NCBI GenBank assembly: GCA_016214905.1 | Contig: JACRMQ010000006.1 | Coordinates: 186,001 to 250,000 of the forward strand | Length of the DNA stretch: 64,000 nt | Direction of reading: 5' to 3' | Origin: Ignavibacteriales bacterium | Lineage (GTDB): Bacteria > Bacteroidota > Ignavibacteria > UBA10030 > SZUA-254 | Shown here: positions 56,208-63,292 of the stretch, piece after piece | How the letters are laid out: every line of letters begins with the position of its first letter | How positions within the stretch are numbered: the first letter of the stretch is position 1 | Position numbers and translations under genes: made by a program | Notes under the pieces: model-generated | The model's database searches: none | Told to the model about the DNA's origin: nothing | What the model saw: the letters and a program-made list of their open reading frames with translations, nothing else

Positions 56208-56921
56208 ATGAAAGAAAAACCTTCTATATGCACTTCATGCAGTCACCGCAAAGGTAGCATCTTTTGCGCGCTGCCTCAGTCGCTCCTCGAACGAATGGAG
56301 AGGGAGAAGATTACGTATCATTATCAACCCGGACAACTTATTTTCTCAGAAGGAAATCCGGCATTTATGATATATCATGTTTTTTCAGGATATGTGAAGT
56401 TATCTAAAACCGGGTGGAAGGGAGAGAAATTAGTGATACGCCTTCGTGGACCGGGAGATATTTTCGGCCACCGCGCAGTTTTATCGGGTGAACCGTACAC
56501 GGCAGATGCTATGGCGCTGGAAGAAACAACCCTGTGTGCAATTCAAAAAGAAATATTTCTTCAGGCGATTAAAGAATCTCCGGAATTCGCGCTTCGTGTT
56601 ATGGCAAAACTGAGTAGCGACCTGCGTGCGTCCGAGGAGCAAACAATGTCAATCACTCATGAAAATGTTCGCCAAAGAGTTGCACGACTGTTGTTATTTC
56701 TTATCGAGGATAATGAGGAAAGCCGCCGGAATCGATTGATTATACCAAATTCATTGTCCAGAGAAGAGATGGCTCAGATGATAGGAACAACACCTGAGTC
56801 GTTATCAAGAACACTTCACTTATTTACAGACAAGAAATTAATTGTAAGAACACGGTCTGAAATTAGAATTATTGATCTCGAAGCTTTAAGGTCCCTTCTC
56901 CCGAAGATGGATAGTGATTGA
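56208..56921 (+). CDS. FNR-like Crp/Fnr family transcription regulator
   Basis: A 237-residue regulator: an N-terminal Cys cluster (Cys8, Cys11, Cys20 in ICTSCSHRKGSIFC), a cyclic-nucleotide-binding-type beta-roll (about 32-135), a long dimer helix and a C-terminal winged helix (about 155-225). Cys110 in EETTLCAIQ aligns by context with Cys122 of E. coli FNR, so four ligands for an oxygen-sensitive Fe-S cluster are possible. The recognition helix PESLSRTL has the Glu-x2-Ser-Arg order of FNR, which reads TTGAT. A perfect such site lies 115 bases after its stop. Confidence 0.9.
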   Translation: MKEKPSICTSCSHRKGSIFCALPQSLLERMEREKITYHYQPGQLIFSEGNPAFMIYHVFSGYVKLSKTGWKGEKLVIRLRGPGDIFGHRAVLSGEPYTADAMALEETTLCAIQKEIFLQAIKESPEFALRVMAKLSSDLRASEEQTMSITHENVRQRVARLLLFLIEDNEESRRNRLIIPNSLSREEMAQMIGTTPESLSRTLHLFTDKKLIVRTRSEIRIIDLEALRSLLPKMDSD

Positions 56922-56922
56922 T

Positions 56923-56953
56923 TGTGGTTTGGATATCCACATTCATTTTTTTT
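56923..56953 (+). terminator. Weak terminator after the FNR-like gene
   Basis: Arms TGTGG (56923-56927) and CCACA (56937-56941), nine-base loop, followed four bases later by eight T. Confidence 0.45.
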
Positions 56954-57035
56954 ACCTGTTTTTATAATCCCTCGATACAAAGCATCATACTGAATCTTAT
57001 AGCTATCTAACCGATTTTAGCTGTATTATTACTTC

Positions 57036-57049
57036 TTGATTTAAATCAA
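57036..57049. promoter_or_regulatory. Perfect FNR box with overlapping third half-site
   Basis: TTGAT-TTAA-ATCAA matches the FNR consensus TTGAT-N4-ATCAA exactly. The right half-site also forms an 18-base palindrome (57045-57062, arms ATCAATTT/AAATTGAT), giving a third TTGAT at 57058-57062. It lies about 260 bases before the giant gene and after the FNR-like gene. Control of the giant gene by that regulator is inferred. Confidence 0.6.
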
Positions 57050-57310
57050 TTTCAAAATTGATACCTATCATTGGAACTCCTTCTCAATAGAGGGAAATTA
57101 TACGAAATATTTATCTAATAATAATAGTGATGAAATAATTAATTGAAAAATGGATACAATTTTTCTCGTTTCAAATATTCAAAAGATGTTTTGCTTTATG
57201 GGAGAATACTAAATTGATCTACATACGCCAAAGAATTTTCACTTCAAAAATATATCTTTCACACCCTCACATTTATCTAACACAGCAAACAATTCACTAA
57301 AGGATTAATT

Positions 57311-60300
57311 ATGAAATACTTTAATTTTTCGATTATGAGTGTTATAGTTTTGTTAATGCTCATAAACTTCAACCAAGCAGGAGCGCAGGGAGCTTCCTAC
57401 TCAAACGATAATTTGCCGAGTTATGGTCAGTTAATCGGTTTCAGCGAAATTACCTATCCGCCAACATCAGCGCGGATGAGGATACATGCAATTCACAATG
57501 GTCGGACGCAAGCCCAGCCACCGGAACCCGGAATGTCGGCTACATATTCTACTGAGGTAATTTATACTTTATGTTACTCGGTAGATGGAACTACGTGGAC
57601 AACGCATGATGTGCCCGGTACTCTATCATTCAGCGCTCAATATTCATCTGCCACAACTGATGAGCGAACATTCAGCACGGAGATGCTTTCAATGGAAGTC
57701 AGTGGCTCATTGCCGGGTGGCGTAATGCTTAGAGAAAGTCCGACGCTTCAATCAACAGGCACTACAAAAATAAAAAAAGTAACCGATGCTTCTTTTAGAA
57801 TCGGCAGTTTCTTTGATATTTTTACAGAAATTAGTTTGGATGGAGGAGCAACATGGATACAATCCGCAGCTTCATCACGTGTAAAATTGCACAACGAGGC
57901 ACCTGTACATTTATTCTCGTCTGATAGTTATCCTCCGGAAGGACAATTTTCGTCAGCTGCTGGTAGTCCGCCGGTTTCTTTCTCTCAGACAATTCAATTA
58001 GGAAATTTACTTATTGCAACTAACCAATCATCTTCACCGTTACCGCCGCTTGGATCTTCCTCCACTCAAACCCTTAGCTTGAATTTTACAAAGATAAGTT
58101 TTTCGTTTGATGGCGGAAGCACGACAAATGATTATTCAGCAACCTGCGATATGCAAGTTCATCTTTTCCATGTTGCTGATGTTGGTGATACGCGCGTCTT
58201 CGATACTGAAATGCTCGCTATGAGTCTGTCCGGTGGAACATTGCCCGGAGGGGTCATGGTTCGTGAAAGTCCTTCAAAAGCTTCAACCGGCCGCTTAAGA
58301 ATAAAGCCAGGACCAAATGCCGCGGCAGGATTCATGATAAGTAGTTTCTTCGATGTATTTACTGAAGTTAGTCTTGATGGCGGAGCAACATGGACACCGG
58401 CAAGTGAAGCGATATCATTAGATTTCAGCAGTTCACCATCAAGTGTTTCAGTTACATCGAATACTTTTCCACCCGAGGGAATGGATTTTACTCCGTCAAG
58501 TTACGGAGTAACGACATTCGAAAACGGCGTGCAGATCAGAAATGTGGCTTTAAGAAGAATTCCAGCCACCACCACGATACCTGTACCGCCTTTTGGCGCC
58601 CGGGCAACTGTAAGTTCATTTTTTGACATTTTTACTGAAGTTTCCCTGGATGGATTAATTTGGAGCCCAAAAAGCAATGTCTCATCTGTCTCTTTGGCTT
58701 GCACGAATCAGCATGACGATGGAGGTGTCACCTATTTTGACACGGAAATGTTGGTATGTGATTTTGAAGCTGTAGGAGGCGGATCTGCGATAAGGCTTCG
58801 TGAGAGCCCCACGCGCGCATCATTGGGAAGAACTAGTCTGAGGTCGATGCCTGACGGAACATATCAGGTTAGCAGTTTCTTTGATATCTTCACTGAAATA
58901 AGCCTGGATGGAGGTTCATCATGGTCTCCGGCCACAGAGCCGATGCACCTCGAGCTAACAAATGCAACCCCTAATCCGCGTCCGGTTATAACTTCGATAT
59001 CGCCAACTTCAGGACCGGTAGGTACGATAATCACAATTTCAGGTAGCGGATTTTCTGAGGTTCCCTCAGAGAACTTAGTATCTCTCGGCGATAATACTCC
59101 GATAATAAAGGGATCAGCTCTTGGTGAGTTGCGAGTTGTTTTAACTCAGCCGATTAGTCCATTAACGGGCGGTGTTTTCCCGGTGAGTGTTATCGTCGGT
59201 GGCTTGTCTAATTTACCTCCAGGACCGGAGTTTAAAATACTATCCAACACTGTTTCATATCTGCCGAATATCAGTGATTTATCGATTAGGGATATTAGAT
59301 CAGGTGATGTGGACGGAGATGGAAAGGATGATATCATCATGCTCGGCGCCAAGGGAAATTGCTGCCGGGGCCACGTTATCATAATGAAAGCATATGAGGA
59401 TGGAAGCTTTGAGAATGCCAGACCGTTCATTGCGACGGTCACATATGGTGAAGATGAGGACTGCGACGATTTGGCGACGGCTGATTCCGACGGTGATGGC
59501 GTCATCGATCAAATAGGAGTGGTAACTCACAAATCCACCGGTGAACGAAAAGTTTATCTCGTCGGTGGTTTGGAACGTCCCGCGGGGGCGTCATTAAGAA
59601 TAATGAATGGTACATTTGCAGGGGGACCCGGATTGGTTGCATTGCAGAAGCTCTCCAATGATGACTCGTTAGATATTGTGTATGGCACACCGGCAGGTGG
59701 TGGTCAACCGGCGATGTTGCATGTGGTGAAAAATTTTGATAAACCCGGTGAGTCGGTTTCCAGAGGGTTGATCGTCGGAGGCGAAGAATGCGATGACGCT
59801 AATTTTAATGATCTGGATAGCGATGGAGACATGGATATCGTTGCTGCAACAGGCAGCGGGATCTATGTTTTCCAAAATAATCAGACAGATTTTGAATTTT
59901 CACGGACGCAGATTGTTGATGATGGTAAACCGTACTCCGGTGTTGCTGTCGCTGATCTTGATGGTGATGGACACGCCGATATTGTGGCGTTACGGAGTGA
60001 TTCCGGTATTGTGAATGTCTTCTTCGGTGATCCACTTAACAGTGGCAGAGTTATTCCAACTGCCAGGGAAGCTGGATCAGGGATGGCAACCGGAAGGCGG
60101 CAACATAAACCAGTTAGTATGGCTGATGTAGATGGTGATGGCAGATTGGATATTGTTTGTGCCGGAGATCTTGTCTCAAGAACGACAGTATGTTTATTGA
60201 ATGGATTACCTCCGGGAGAACCAATTATCAGGTTTAGTGCGATAAGTTTGGATGATTGTGATGACGATGGAAGAGATAAATTATTCGCAGTCGGTAAATT

Positions 60301-63292
60301 CGATATGGATAATGATTGTGATTTCGCTTTTGTAAGTTGCCGCTCCACTACAATTAGTCCGCCATTCGTTTCAAGTTTGTCGCCGGATATATGTCCGGTG
60401 GGATCAGTAATCACGATTGAAGGAGATAATTTACAAGATGTGTCTTCGGTTCAGATCGGAGATTTCGACGCAATTTTCATTCGTGAAAGTCCGACATTAT
60501 TGCATGTTACGGTTCCGGTCGCCGCACGAACATTTGCAGCGCCCCACATTCTTGAAAGAATGACAATCACTTGTCCATCAGGTGTTTGCGCTGTGCTCAA
60601 ACCGATCACGGTATCACCGGTACTCGTTTACGCACCACCGCAACTTGATCAGTTAGAAAGTCAATTTGTACGCGGCGGCGATATGGATGGAGACGGCAAG
60701 GGAGATATAGTTGCCTTGAGTAAACATACAAAAAGCGGACACGTTACACTTTTAAAAAGATCTGATAACGGTAGTTCTTCAAGAGCTATGGTTACCTCTT
60801 TCTTTGATGGAATAGATGATGATTGCGATGGCTTTGCTGTTGGTGACCTTGATGGAGATGGGCTTTCGGATGTTTGTGCTGCCCTAACTTCCAGAAGTAC
60901 AGGCTTCACGAATTTTGCACTTTTACTTGGTGATCTAACACGACCAGGGATGTTCCGGGAGAGTCCTACAAAAGTCCAGAAAAAATGGATGCCGGCTAAC
61001 TTCCGTCTTCGTACCATGGCATCTGAGATGAAAGATATTGATGGCGACGGTAAGCCTGACATCGTGTTTGCGATACAGGGTACAACAGAGGACACTCTTG
61101 TGGTAATAACGAATCCGTTATCTGAAACAGGTTTCTCGAGTTTGAAAATAAGACATAAAGGATGGGATGGTACTGTAAAAGGAACGGCAATGGTTCTTGT
61201 TCCTAGATCTTCATTCTTCGATATTTTCTCTCTATCTCATAATAGTTTAGATGTTTATCGTTATGGAAGCGGCGGCGGCGGTGCCGGTGGTTCACTATCT
61301 TTAGTCAGCAGTGCAGTCCTGCGTGAATCACCAACACGGCGATCACTTGCATGCCGCGATATGAATGGTGACGGATTAACAGATGCAGTTATTTTGGATG
61401 ATGATTCCAGTCTTGTAACAGTTTGTTTAGATAATGGCGATGGAACTTTTAGATTCTATCACCCTGTTGATCCTGCAACTGGTGTGGCATCATCTCCAAA
61501 GCGATTGAGTCTTATAGTCACCGACTTAGACGGAGATGGCAGAAGTGATATCGCTATTGATGAGCCGGGTGTTCACTTTGCACCAGCTAAATCAGCAAAA
61601 ACTATATCAGATTTTACTTACCAAAAAATTGAATGGACTGTTTTTTATAACAGAACAAATCCACCTGATACAACAGTAAGTTTTGAAAGAAAAAAGCTGA
61701 TGCTGATTGATATCAATGTAGGCGACTTCAACCAAGTTGCAGTTTGTGATCTCGATGGTGATGGTTTCCAAGATCTCGTAGTTACAGGAGCCTCATCGTC
61801 CGTTGTGAGACCTCCATTTATTGAACGTTTATCAACGAAGCGTCCGATTCGGGGTGGACCATTCTCCCTAATGGGAAAAATGTTAAGCACGACGACCTCA
61901 GTTGATGTTTGCAATCCATGTACTTCAGTATCAAGTTTTGCAGCCCAGTCTGATAGTGAGTTAACTGTAGTTCTCACACCGGATATTTCCGGAGATAGAT
62001 ATTTAACTGTAACAAATCCTGATGGGTCTGTAAGTTTAGCAAGTCCCTTAACGATAATAACAGCACCGGATATGTTCGTTTCTCTCCCTCCAGATTCACT
62101 TACAATCCCCGACTCAAAAGGTGGTTTTGTAAAACCTGTTAAACGAGGTAAAGGATTATATCCGAACTGGACAAATCTGTTAGAAGAAGTTGTGGTTCAG
62201 GGTGGATTCCAACCTGGTGCAACTGAAAGTGATGAAGGTGGTGGATTAAGGGTTGGTATCTCGCATATTTATGAAGCATCACCGGGGAAATGGAAACCAA
62301 TAAAAGATTCCGCCAAAGTTAGGGCCTGGGTTGTAGTACGCGGATGGGATCCGAAGAAGAACGCAGGAAAAAACTGGGGTACAATTCAAAAAACATTACG
62401 CAATAAAACTTACTTGCACACTGGTTTGGCAAGGGGATTTGATTCCACGGGTACACCCGGAAGTCTAAAGCGTAAATTCATGAAAGGTGAATTGAAAGGT
62501 TTAGATCCGAAGAAAACACCTAACAGTTTATTTGCCGAACTTGTTGCTTTAAAGTTTAACATTGCTGCCAGTCAATTAGGTAAAACACCTCTAGGATTCG
62601 GTGAATTGGAATATAGAGACGATACAAGCATCTTCGATGGTAAATCGATTCTCGATATCTCCGAGGTTGCCGATAGCGCAATGACATATTATTCGCAGGA
62701 GAACCCGCTGTATAATGACGGCAGTCATCAAGGTGTGAATCCATTCTATGAAGATCTGTATCAAACTGTTCATAACATTAACCATGCTTTCATTGGTCCG
62801 TTGGACACAGCATCTTTTGAAACTGGTGCAACTCTGACAGTCAACGGAGTGGTTGATCTTGCTACAGTCCCATTCTTAAAATTCCCGGATGGTGCTGTGG
62901 CATTAACACAGCTAAGACCAACCACGACAGAAACATCTTCTGATTATGAATCTGCTTCAGATGAGCTTGATCAGGTTGATGTAGCAGACATGCCTGTTGC
63001 GGCAAAAATATTCCAGAACTATCCGAATCCGTTCAATCCGACGACAACAATTTCGTTTGTTATTCGAAACAACTCGTTGGTAACATTGAAAGTATTCAAC
63101 ATGCTCGGTCAGGAAGTTGCTTCATTCTTCAATAACGAAGAACTGAATGCCGGTTCATATGATAATGAATTCAATGCTGATAAGCTGGCATCAGGTATTT
63201 ATTTCTATCGATTAACAGTCGAAGAGAAAAATGCTGATGGGACAAAAGCCGGTTCGTTCACGGAAATCCATAAAATGTCTTTATTAAAGTAA
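57311..63292 (+). CDS. Giant secreted repeat protein (SFFDIF/RESPT modules, TIG, FG-GAP, T9SS sorting domain)
   Basis: A 1993-residue protein. Signal peptide ends near NQAGAQG (about residue 26). Region 100-545 has three modules of about 70 residues with FDTEMLxM, LPGGVMxRESPT, SFFDIFTEISLDGGATW. Then a TIG/IPT domain (about 557-640, ITSISPTSGPVGT), about eleven FG-GAP/VCBS repeats with Ca2+-type DxDGDGxxD loops (about 655-1490), further TIG-like stretches (about 1010-1100 and 1500-1585), a unique domain (about 1610-1890) and a T9SS sorting domain (QNYPNPFNPTTTISF, about 1915 to the end). It is probably a large surface adhesin or matrix protein binding Ca2+. AAGGA precedes the ATG. Confidence 0.9.
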   Translation: MKYFNFSIMSVIVLLMLINFNQAGAQGASYSNDNLPSYGQLIGFSEITYPPTSARMRIHAIHNGRTQAQPPEPGMSATYSTEVIYTLCYSVDGTTWTTHDVPGTLSFSAQYSSATTDERTFSTEMLSMEVSGSLPGGVMLRESPTLQSTGTTKIKKVTDASFRIGSFFDIFTEISLDGGATWIQSAASSRVKLHNEAPVHLFSSDSYPPEGQFSSAAGSPPVSFSQTIQLGNLLIATNQSSSPLPPLGSSSTQTLSLNFTKISFSFDGGSTTNDYSATCDMQVHLFHVADVGDTRVFDTEMLAMSLSGGTLPGGVMVRESPSKASTGRLRIKPGPNAAAGFMISSFFDVFTEVSLDGGATWTPASEAISLDFSSSPSSVSVTSNTFPPEGMDFTPSSYGVTTFENGVQIRNVALRRIPATTTIPVPPFGARATVSSFFDIFTEVSLDGLIWSPKSNVSSVSLACTNQHDDGGVTYFDTEMLVCDFEAVGGGSAIRLRESPTRASLGRTSLRSMPDGTYQVSSFFDIFTEISLDGGSSWSPATEPMHLELTNATPNPRPVITSISPTSGPVGTIITISGSGFSEVPSENLVSLGDNTPIIKGSALGELRVVLTQPISPLTGGVFPVSVIVGGLSNLPPGPEFKILSNTVSYLPNISDLSIRDIRSGDVDGDGKDDIIMLGAKGNCCRGHVIIMKAYEDGSFENARPFIATVTYGEDEDCDDLATADSDGDGVIDQIGVVTHKSTGERKVYLVGGLERPAGASLRIMNGTFAGGPGLVALQKLSNDDSLDIVYGTPAGGGQPAMLHVVKNFDKPGESVSRGLIVGGEECDDANFNDLDSDGDMDIVAATGSGIYVFQNNQTDFEFSRTQIVDDGKPYSGVAVADLDGDGHADIVALRSDSGIVNVFFGDPLNSGRVIPTAREAGSGMATGRRQHKPVSMADVDGDGRLDIVCAGDLVSRTTVCLLNGLPPGEPIIRFSAISLDDCDDDGRDKLFAVGKFDMDNDCDFAFVSCRSTTISPPFVSSLSPDICPVGSVITIEGDNLQDVSSVQIGDFDAIFIRESPTLLHVTVPVAARTFAAPHILERMTITCPSGVCAVLKPITVSPVLVYAPPQLDQLESQFVRGGDMDGDGKGDIVALSKHTKSGHVTLLKRSDNGSSSRAMVTSFFDGIDDDCDGFAVGDLDGDGLSDVCAALTSRSTGFTNFALLLGDLTRPGMFRESPTKVQKKWMPANFRLRTMASEMKDIDGDGKPDIVFAIQGTTEDTLVVITNPLSETGFSSLKIRHKGWDGTVKGTAMVLVPRSSFFDIFSLSHNSLDVYRYGSGGGGAGGSLSLVSSAVLRESPTRRSLACRDMNGDGLTDAVILDDDSSLVTVCLDNGDGTFRFYHPVDPATGVASSPKRLSLIVTDLDGDGRSDIAIDEPGVHFAPAKSAKTISDFTYQKIEWTVFYNRTNPPDTTVSFERKKLMLIDINVGDFNQVAVCDLDGDGFQDLVVTGASSSVVRPPFIERLSTKRPIRGGPFSLMGKMLSTTTSVDVCNPCTSVSSFAAQSDSELTVVLTPDISGDRYLTVTNPDGSVSLASPLTIITAPDMFVSLPPDSLTIPDSKGGFVKPVKRGKGLYPNWTNLLEEVVVQGGFQPGATESDEGGGLRVGISHIYEASPGKWKPIKDSAKVRAWVVVRGWDPKKNAGKNWGTIQKTLRNKTYLHTGLARGFDSTGTPGSLKRKFMKGELKGLDPKKTPNSLFAELVALKFNIAASQLGKTPLGFGELEYRDDTSIFDGKSILDISEVADSAMTYYSQENPLYNDGSHQGVNPFYEDLYQTVHNINHAFIGPLDTASFETGATLTVNGVVDLATVPFLKFPDGAVALTQLRPTTTETSSDYESASDELDQVDVADMPVAAKIFQNYPNPFNPTTTISFVIRNNSLVTLKVFNMLGQEVASFFNNEELNAGSYDNEFNADKLASGIYFYRLTVEEKNADGTKAGSFTEIHKMSLLK

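Follow-up and report, generated by a model that had tools for sequence, protein, structure and literature searches.

Type IX cargo proteins are known mostly by their sorting tail and by the outer-membrane machine, and, to our knowledge, dedicated transcriptional switches for single cargoes of this kind have been little described; a limited search of the literature (titles and the starts of abstracts) returned no report of a type IX cargo controlled by FNR. Among described promoters, that of ompW in E. coli offers a comparison, since this gene for an outer-membrane protein is controlled by FNR from two sites, and FNR-dependent promoters have their site mostly at -41.5 or -61.5 (PMC4886647, in excerpt). 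The cluster ligands of Paracoccus FnrP are Cys14, 17, 25, and 113, with the spacing CX2CX7C (PMC4771820, in excerpt), and a meta-regulon study gave carbon or Flp-like roles to the Crp/FNR homologues of Ignavibacteria (PMC8510549, in excerpt). The locus considered here lies within the window, i.e., the whole 64-kb stretch of DNA that was analysed, and has the following features:

56208..56921, + strand: Crp/Fnr-type regulator, 237 aa, with CxxC (C8, C11), C20, H57, and C110, and the recognition helix TTPESLSR
56922..57310, + strand: putative intergenic control region, from the regulator to the giant gene
57036..57049, no strand assigned: FNR dyad 1, TTGATTTAAATCAA, exact, its half-site bases the same in the related genome G161
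57058..57071, no strand assigned: FNR dyad 2, TTGATACCTATCAT, 9 of 10 bases, 22 bp from dyad 1
57311..63292, + strand: giant protein, predicted to be secreted, 1993 aa, with RESPT/SFFDIFTE N-terminal repeat units, IPT/TIG, FG-GAP repeats, and a C-terminal type IX sorting tail

We propose that the regulator is an FNR-like, one-component protein whose main role is to be the giant cargo's private switch, through the two predicted dyad sites, a reading to which we assign a probability of about 0.62. A dimer of the regulator would bind each of the two FNR dyads (57036-57071), which would lie two helical turns apart and so on the same side of the double helix; the bound protein would set transcription of the type IX cargo at 57311. 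The regulator resembles the FNR proteins of E. coli (b1334) and A. fischeri in its fold (TM 0.85 to the FNR structure 5e44, although CRP-type structures stand higher), in three of its cysteines, in the residues of its recognition helix, and in the TTGAT-N4-ATCAA site. It differs from E. coli FNR in that its N-terminal cysteines are spaced CX2CX8C rather than CX2CX5C, which is near the spacing of Paracoccus FnrP (PMC4771820, in excerpt), and in that the third of them is not conserved in relatives. It also differs from FNR in having no second tandem site in its own genome and from alphaproteobacterial FnrL and FnrP in its target, which would be a secreted cargo and not respiratory genes. The ompW case differs as well, since its sites are 45 bp apart, the regulator is the global FNR, and the product is a porin rather than a type IX cargo (PMC4886647, in excerpt).

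Pfam and Foldseek place the regulator in the Crp/Fnr superfamily, with a cNMP-binding-like fold and a Crp-type winged helix, and its matches to cNMP_binding (75.5 bits) and HTH_Crp_2 (62.5 bits) both exceed the Pfam cut-offs. A preliminary description of this DNA had reported Cys8, Cys11, Cys20, and Cys110 together with an E-x2-S-R recognition helix (PESLSR), and both observations hold: the ORF contains exactly four cysteines, at these positions, and carries TTPESLSR. When aligned to E. coli FNR (K-12 record), C8, C11, and C110 pair with the FNR ligands C20, C23, and C122, and E197, S200, and R201 pair with E209, S212, and R213, whereas C20 falls opposite Phe32, three residues beyond FNR Cys29, and H57 opposite Ala70. 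The recognition helix of CRP is E-x2-G-R. The regulator has the E-x2-S-R of the FNR subgroup and adjoins DNA with TTGAT-N4-ATCAA, and its helix would accordingly be of the kind that reads TTGAT. Its best NCBIfam match is FnrL, yet the score of 70.6 bits misses the cut-off of 300 by far, and the Fnr and CRP equivalogs score 51.3 (cut-off 228, again far below) and 47.1 bits (cut-off 266). Because the Fnr and FnrL cut-offs are missed so widely, we regard the protein as FNR-like but not as an FNR orthologue, i.e., as a putative variant that is new to the known FNR type. The AlphaFold model (pLDDT 87), in which residues 57 and 110 fall in beta strands 54-60 and 107-113, has CRP-type structures as its best matches, with a TM of 0.84 to GlxR, and A. 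fischeri FNR structures appear from rank 11 on; the solved structures closest by sequence are P. gingivalis 2gau and then CRP types, FNR standing lower (E about 3e-13). The structures nearest by sequence and by fold are, in short, CRP-type or unassigned Crp/Fnr proteins; the predicted FNR assignment comes from the helix, the cysteines, and the box, and family placement by itself does not say FNR.

An exact TTGAT-N4-ATCAA and a third half-site, at 57058, had been described previously. The exact dyad, TTGATTTAAATCAA, is indeed at 57036-57049 and is the sole one in the 64-kb window; a TTGAT site is likewise found at 57058, but it does not stand alone, being part of a second dyad, TTGATACCTATCAT, that begins 22 bp after the start of the first. 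We rejected the exact box by itself as evidence, considering that the 3.3-Mb genome holds nine, seven of them within ORFs of at least 90 aa; one also arises in 129 of 20,000 sequences made by shuffling the dinucleotides of this intergenic DNA. These scattered single boxes are what speaks for a chance match without a role, a reading that we consider very improbable since the tandem has no second copy in the genome, is conserved base for base in G161, and is rare in shuffles: an exact dyad with another of at most one mismatch within 60 bp arose in 2 of 20,000, and at a spacing of 22 bp in none of 20,000. At up to three mismatches, the tandem occurs at the window locus only, in the whole 3.3-Mb genome, and the pattern TTGAT-N4-ATCA-N9-TTGAT-N4-ATCA has three matches in 391 genomes of the class, i.e., the window, G161, and a contig of a third genome (G153:C115; L144, 1501-1536). 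The last lies on another contig than that genome's regulator, precedes a small ORF and then a gene that by eye resembles a CoA-transferase, and was set aside. A broad FNR regulon deduced from exact boxes was also rejected, as the genome has one further intergenic exact box (L013, about 540 bp upstream of an ORF that looks TetR-like) and no second tandem at up to three mismatches. Eight other genes with the C-terminal module of the giant (L146-L153) have no dyad pair upstream; two single FNR sites of at most one mismatch were found there, both inside ORFs.

Matches to the regulator at E <= 1e-40 occur in 4 of the 98 genomes of the order, namely the window genome, G161 (66% identity over residues 1-213), G148 (46%), and G172 (44%), and the four proteins form one clade (support 99/98). 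G161 belongs to the same order and to another family (f5), and there TTGATTAAGATCAA and TTGATTTTAATCAT lie downstream of the regulator with the same 22-bp spacing, and beyond them comes a gene homologous to the giant (47% over residues 1165-1993 and 42% over 557-716), the genes upstream of the regulator being different in the two genomes. In an alignment of the two intergenic regions, which includes a few cargo codons, all 20 half-site bases are identical, compared with 2 of 8 bases in the dyad spacers and 150 of 302 columns outside the half-sites; even the terminal T of dyad 2 is the same in G161. This is the identity pattern of a protected, albeit putative, binding site. Frame changes and a stop split the end of the regulator and the cargo in G161 (L133, 7572-11600) and leave the dyads intact; these breaks could reflect either recent decay or sequencing error. 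Comparison thus shows regulator, predicted tandem dyads, and cargo recurring as one unit in another family. A degraded tandem at 22 bp is found in G172, at the very end of the regulator gene; it departs from the window/G161 pattern at 3 of 20 bases (matched by 0 of 5000 shuffles) and from an all-TTGAT pattern at four (0 of 1000). G148 has a marginal, CTGAC-type pair at 22 bp, with five mismatches (37 of 5000 shuffles; with the all-TTGAT pattern, 75 of 1000). In all four close genomes, which are not independent, two sharing the giant and two sharing a genus, the regulator's next gene encodes a type IX cargo: that of G172 is a dihaem cytochrome c peroxidase and that of G148 a cytochrome_C7/fn3 protein, each with a type IX sorting tail, and in G161 the tail is encoded in the fragment cut off by the stop. 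The window genome (G000), G161, G148, and G172 have 116, 77, 123, and 132 sorting tails, respectively, or, by a rough estimate, ~4% of genes.

Box type was also compared with helix type among 28 wider relatives of the class and phylum (L045-L069, L014, L015, and L161; 27 of the examined regulators described below, plus G681), which share 31-38% identity with the window regulator. None of the 28 has TTGAT-N4-ATCAA within 400 bp of the regulator, and 17 have ATGAY-N4-RTCAT in that distance (shuffle mean 0.23, maximum 2), as against two exact FNR boxes and no ATGAY box among the close four. Five altered-motif controls each gave 0 of 28, and one of them matched one of the four close loci. The helix is E-x2-S-R in the close four and E-x2-I-R in 27 of the 28; the exception (L050), with an S-R helix, has neither exact box and carries a one-mismatch FNR dyad, TTGATGGAGATCAT, downstream. 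The 17 loci represent fewer independent cases, as nine are near copies from one genus (families f17, f10, f31, f11, f1, and f36 are represented), and 11 of the 28 relatives lack the ATGAY box. The comparison shows, for these predicted sites, that box type and regulator helix change together. As a separate observation, ATGAY-N4-RTCAT beside Cys-rich Crp/Fnr genes is a candidate for the operator of an oxygen regulon that spans the class. An all-TTGAT tandem at 22 bp was reached at no more than 1 of 1000 shuffles in 5 of 32 loci (the window, G161, G172, G681, and L051, where it is upstream of both a FixI-type ATPase and the regulator) and was not in the other 27. With eight near copies dropped, leaving 24 loci, and with WTGAY-N4-RTCAW dyads (one perfect, the other with at most three mismatches), nine pairs were found at 22 bp, compared with at most four at any of the other spacings between 15 and 44 and a mean of 0.04 (maximum 2) at 22 bp in shuffles. 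Since 22 bp is the commonest spacing of dyad pairs across the loci, the putative tandem looks like an old habit of the subfamily.

Two relatives nearer to the window genome have no orthologue of the regulator. One, of the same genus, is G011; the other, G008, is of the same family and has a paralogue-type regulator only, together with an orthologue of the giant (63% over residues 1-1628 and 59% of aligned pairs overall). The 277-bp intergenic region upstream of this orthologue contains no box, its best tandem having 9 of 20 mismatches, which 2948 of 3000 shuffles equalled. Conservation of the box in relatives had been named earlier as a check, and in this analysis the box proved to be kept in G161, degraded in G172, and absent in the regulator-less G008, the last being one case. 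The earlier suggestion that the giant gene is controlled by its neighbour through the box is therefore well supported by comparison, as the box is kept where regulator and cargo are both present (G161) and is absent in G008. The same genome bears on whether the dyads might instead be read by the other Crp/Fnr protein of the window genome (C7:471171), a family-wide regulator, with the neighbour being incidental. That paralogue has no cysteine at the ligand positions, but its helix, GTSRETISR, is also E-x2-S-R, making a TTGAT-like site plausible, and a relative with this type of helix is present in all 15 genomes of the family. G008, however, has both the paralogue and the giant orthologue and yet no dyads, and box type follows the helix of the adjacent, Cys-clade regulator; we thus find it unlikely that the paralogue is the reader.

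The product of 57311-63292 is a predicted type IX secretion cargo, its sorting tail scoring 38.5 bits against PF18962 Por_Secre_tail (cut-off 27) and 40.3 bits against TIGR04183 (cut-off 23). A weak Pfam match of 26 residues (927-952) to TcdB_toxin_midN, in the FG-GAP part, gives no ground for a toxin label. RESP recurs at residues 141, 318, 497, 1058, 1216, and 1338 and SFFD at 166, 345, 436, 522, 1163, and 1301, in the N-terminal units and the FG-GAP region, and 11 of these 12 places are common to the giant and its G008 orthologue, the exception being RESPT at 1338; the recurrence looks like either internal copying or a conserved odd motif. Identity to the G008 orthologue (L132) is 41-80% over residues 801-1600, drops to about 30% for 1601-1900, and is 48% for the final block, and, alongside the 47% identity to the G161 homologue over residues 1165-1993, the end module may have been exchanged.

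With regard to the signal, we examined 31 regulators (30 loci from a similarity search, plus L015; matches at E <= 1e-25 occur in 137 genomes altogether). C8, C11, and C110 are present in all 31. Position 20 is Cys in 21, is Arg in the 66% orthologue of G161, and in G148 has a Cys one place on, and at position 57, 29 of the proteins have Cys and the other two, from the window and G161, the loci with the perfect tandem, have His. C8, C11, and C110 align with FNR ligands, but the specific four-cysteine argument of the preliminary description is weak, because Cys20 aligns with Phe32 and its column lacks Cys in 10 of the 31. The N-terminal domain would carry an Fe-S (or metal) site sensitive to O2 or redox state, whose ligands probably include C8, C11, and C110, with C20 or H57 as a candidate fourth. 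Relatives from Acidobacteria (L100-L131) mostly combine C8, C11, and C20 with a Cys at 59 and lack one at 110, though a Cys at 107 is frequent, which gives the impression that the other ligands have shifted.

The genes beside these regulators were also considered. A scan of ten proteins chosen by eye (including L134/L135), which gives counts and no rate, found FixI-type metal ATPases at three loci, CcoG at two, FixH with DsbD_2 at one, and Usp at one, as well as the two cytochrome cargoes; other neighbours occur at several loci, a second Crp/Fnr-like ORF being frequent among them. In G681, a downstream ORF has a metal-ATPase-like N-terminus and another resembles a cbb3 subunit, both by eye. 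Since some loci adjoin cbb3-oxidase assembly genes, part of the subfamily is linked by gene position with the respiration of oxygen, and, as C8, C11, and C110 also align with FNR ligands, oxygen or redox state is a plausible signal for the regulator. The window genome has three matches to haem-copper oxidase subunit I, and oxygen is therefore relevant to it. The neighbour might, on the other hand, act through the dyads in response to nitric oxide, peroxide, the redox state of its thiols, or a bound metal in a site that has no Fe-S cluster. Lactobacillus FLP is a thiol switch, and C8/C11 with C110 could form one of that kind; Cys20 is dispensable in the family, and in G172 the target is a dihaem cytochrome c peroxidase and a divergent ORF resembles msrA by eye. 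Against these points, the cbb3-assembly neighbours of some wide relatives point to O2, and C8, C11, and C110 match FNR ligands, so that a signal other than O2 seems to us possible but the less probable case.

The sign of control is a further question. Since a scan of 56922-57310 gave no sigma70-type promoter on the + strand and the dyad centres lie about 246-268 bp upstream of the ATG, it cannot be read from the position of the dyads. The same distance and the same missing promoter leave room for the dyads to repress the giant gene, which would then be expressed aerobically, or mainly to fine-tune the regulator or target; the -41.5/-61.5 rule for FNR-dependent promoters would, by contrast, fit a start not far downstream of the dyads (PMC4886647, in excerpt). 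We hold repression or fine-tuning to be a tentative alternative, and activation at low O2 would be the likelier sign.

The wider subfamily resembles the regulator in C8, C11, C110, and, in several members, 22-bp tandem dyads, and differs from it in having Cys57 rather than His57, E-x2-I-R in 27 of 28, and ATGAY-N4-RTCAT in 17 of 28. As a conjecture that we regard as doubtful, a cbb3-linked FNR subfamily with a site made of C8, C11, residue 57, and C110 would have been captured as a private type IX cargo switch; Cys57 would have become His, giving a three-Cys, one-His cluster, the helix would have passed from E-x2-I-R to E-x2-S-R as the operator passed from ATGAY-N4-RTCAT to TTGAT-N4-ATCAA, and the unit would have travelled between families. 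The paired differences within the subfamily, in the helix (I to S) and in the box (ATGAY to TTGAT), form a natural series that bears on how FNR specificity changes, and the putative cluster site may have exchanged a Cys for a His. If the proposed reading is true, the regulator/operator/cargo cassette would mean that surface display is chosen by oxygen or redox state in these bacteria.
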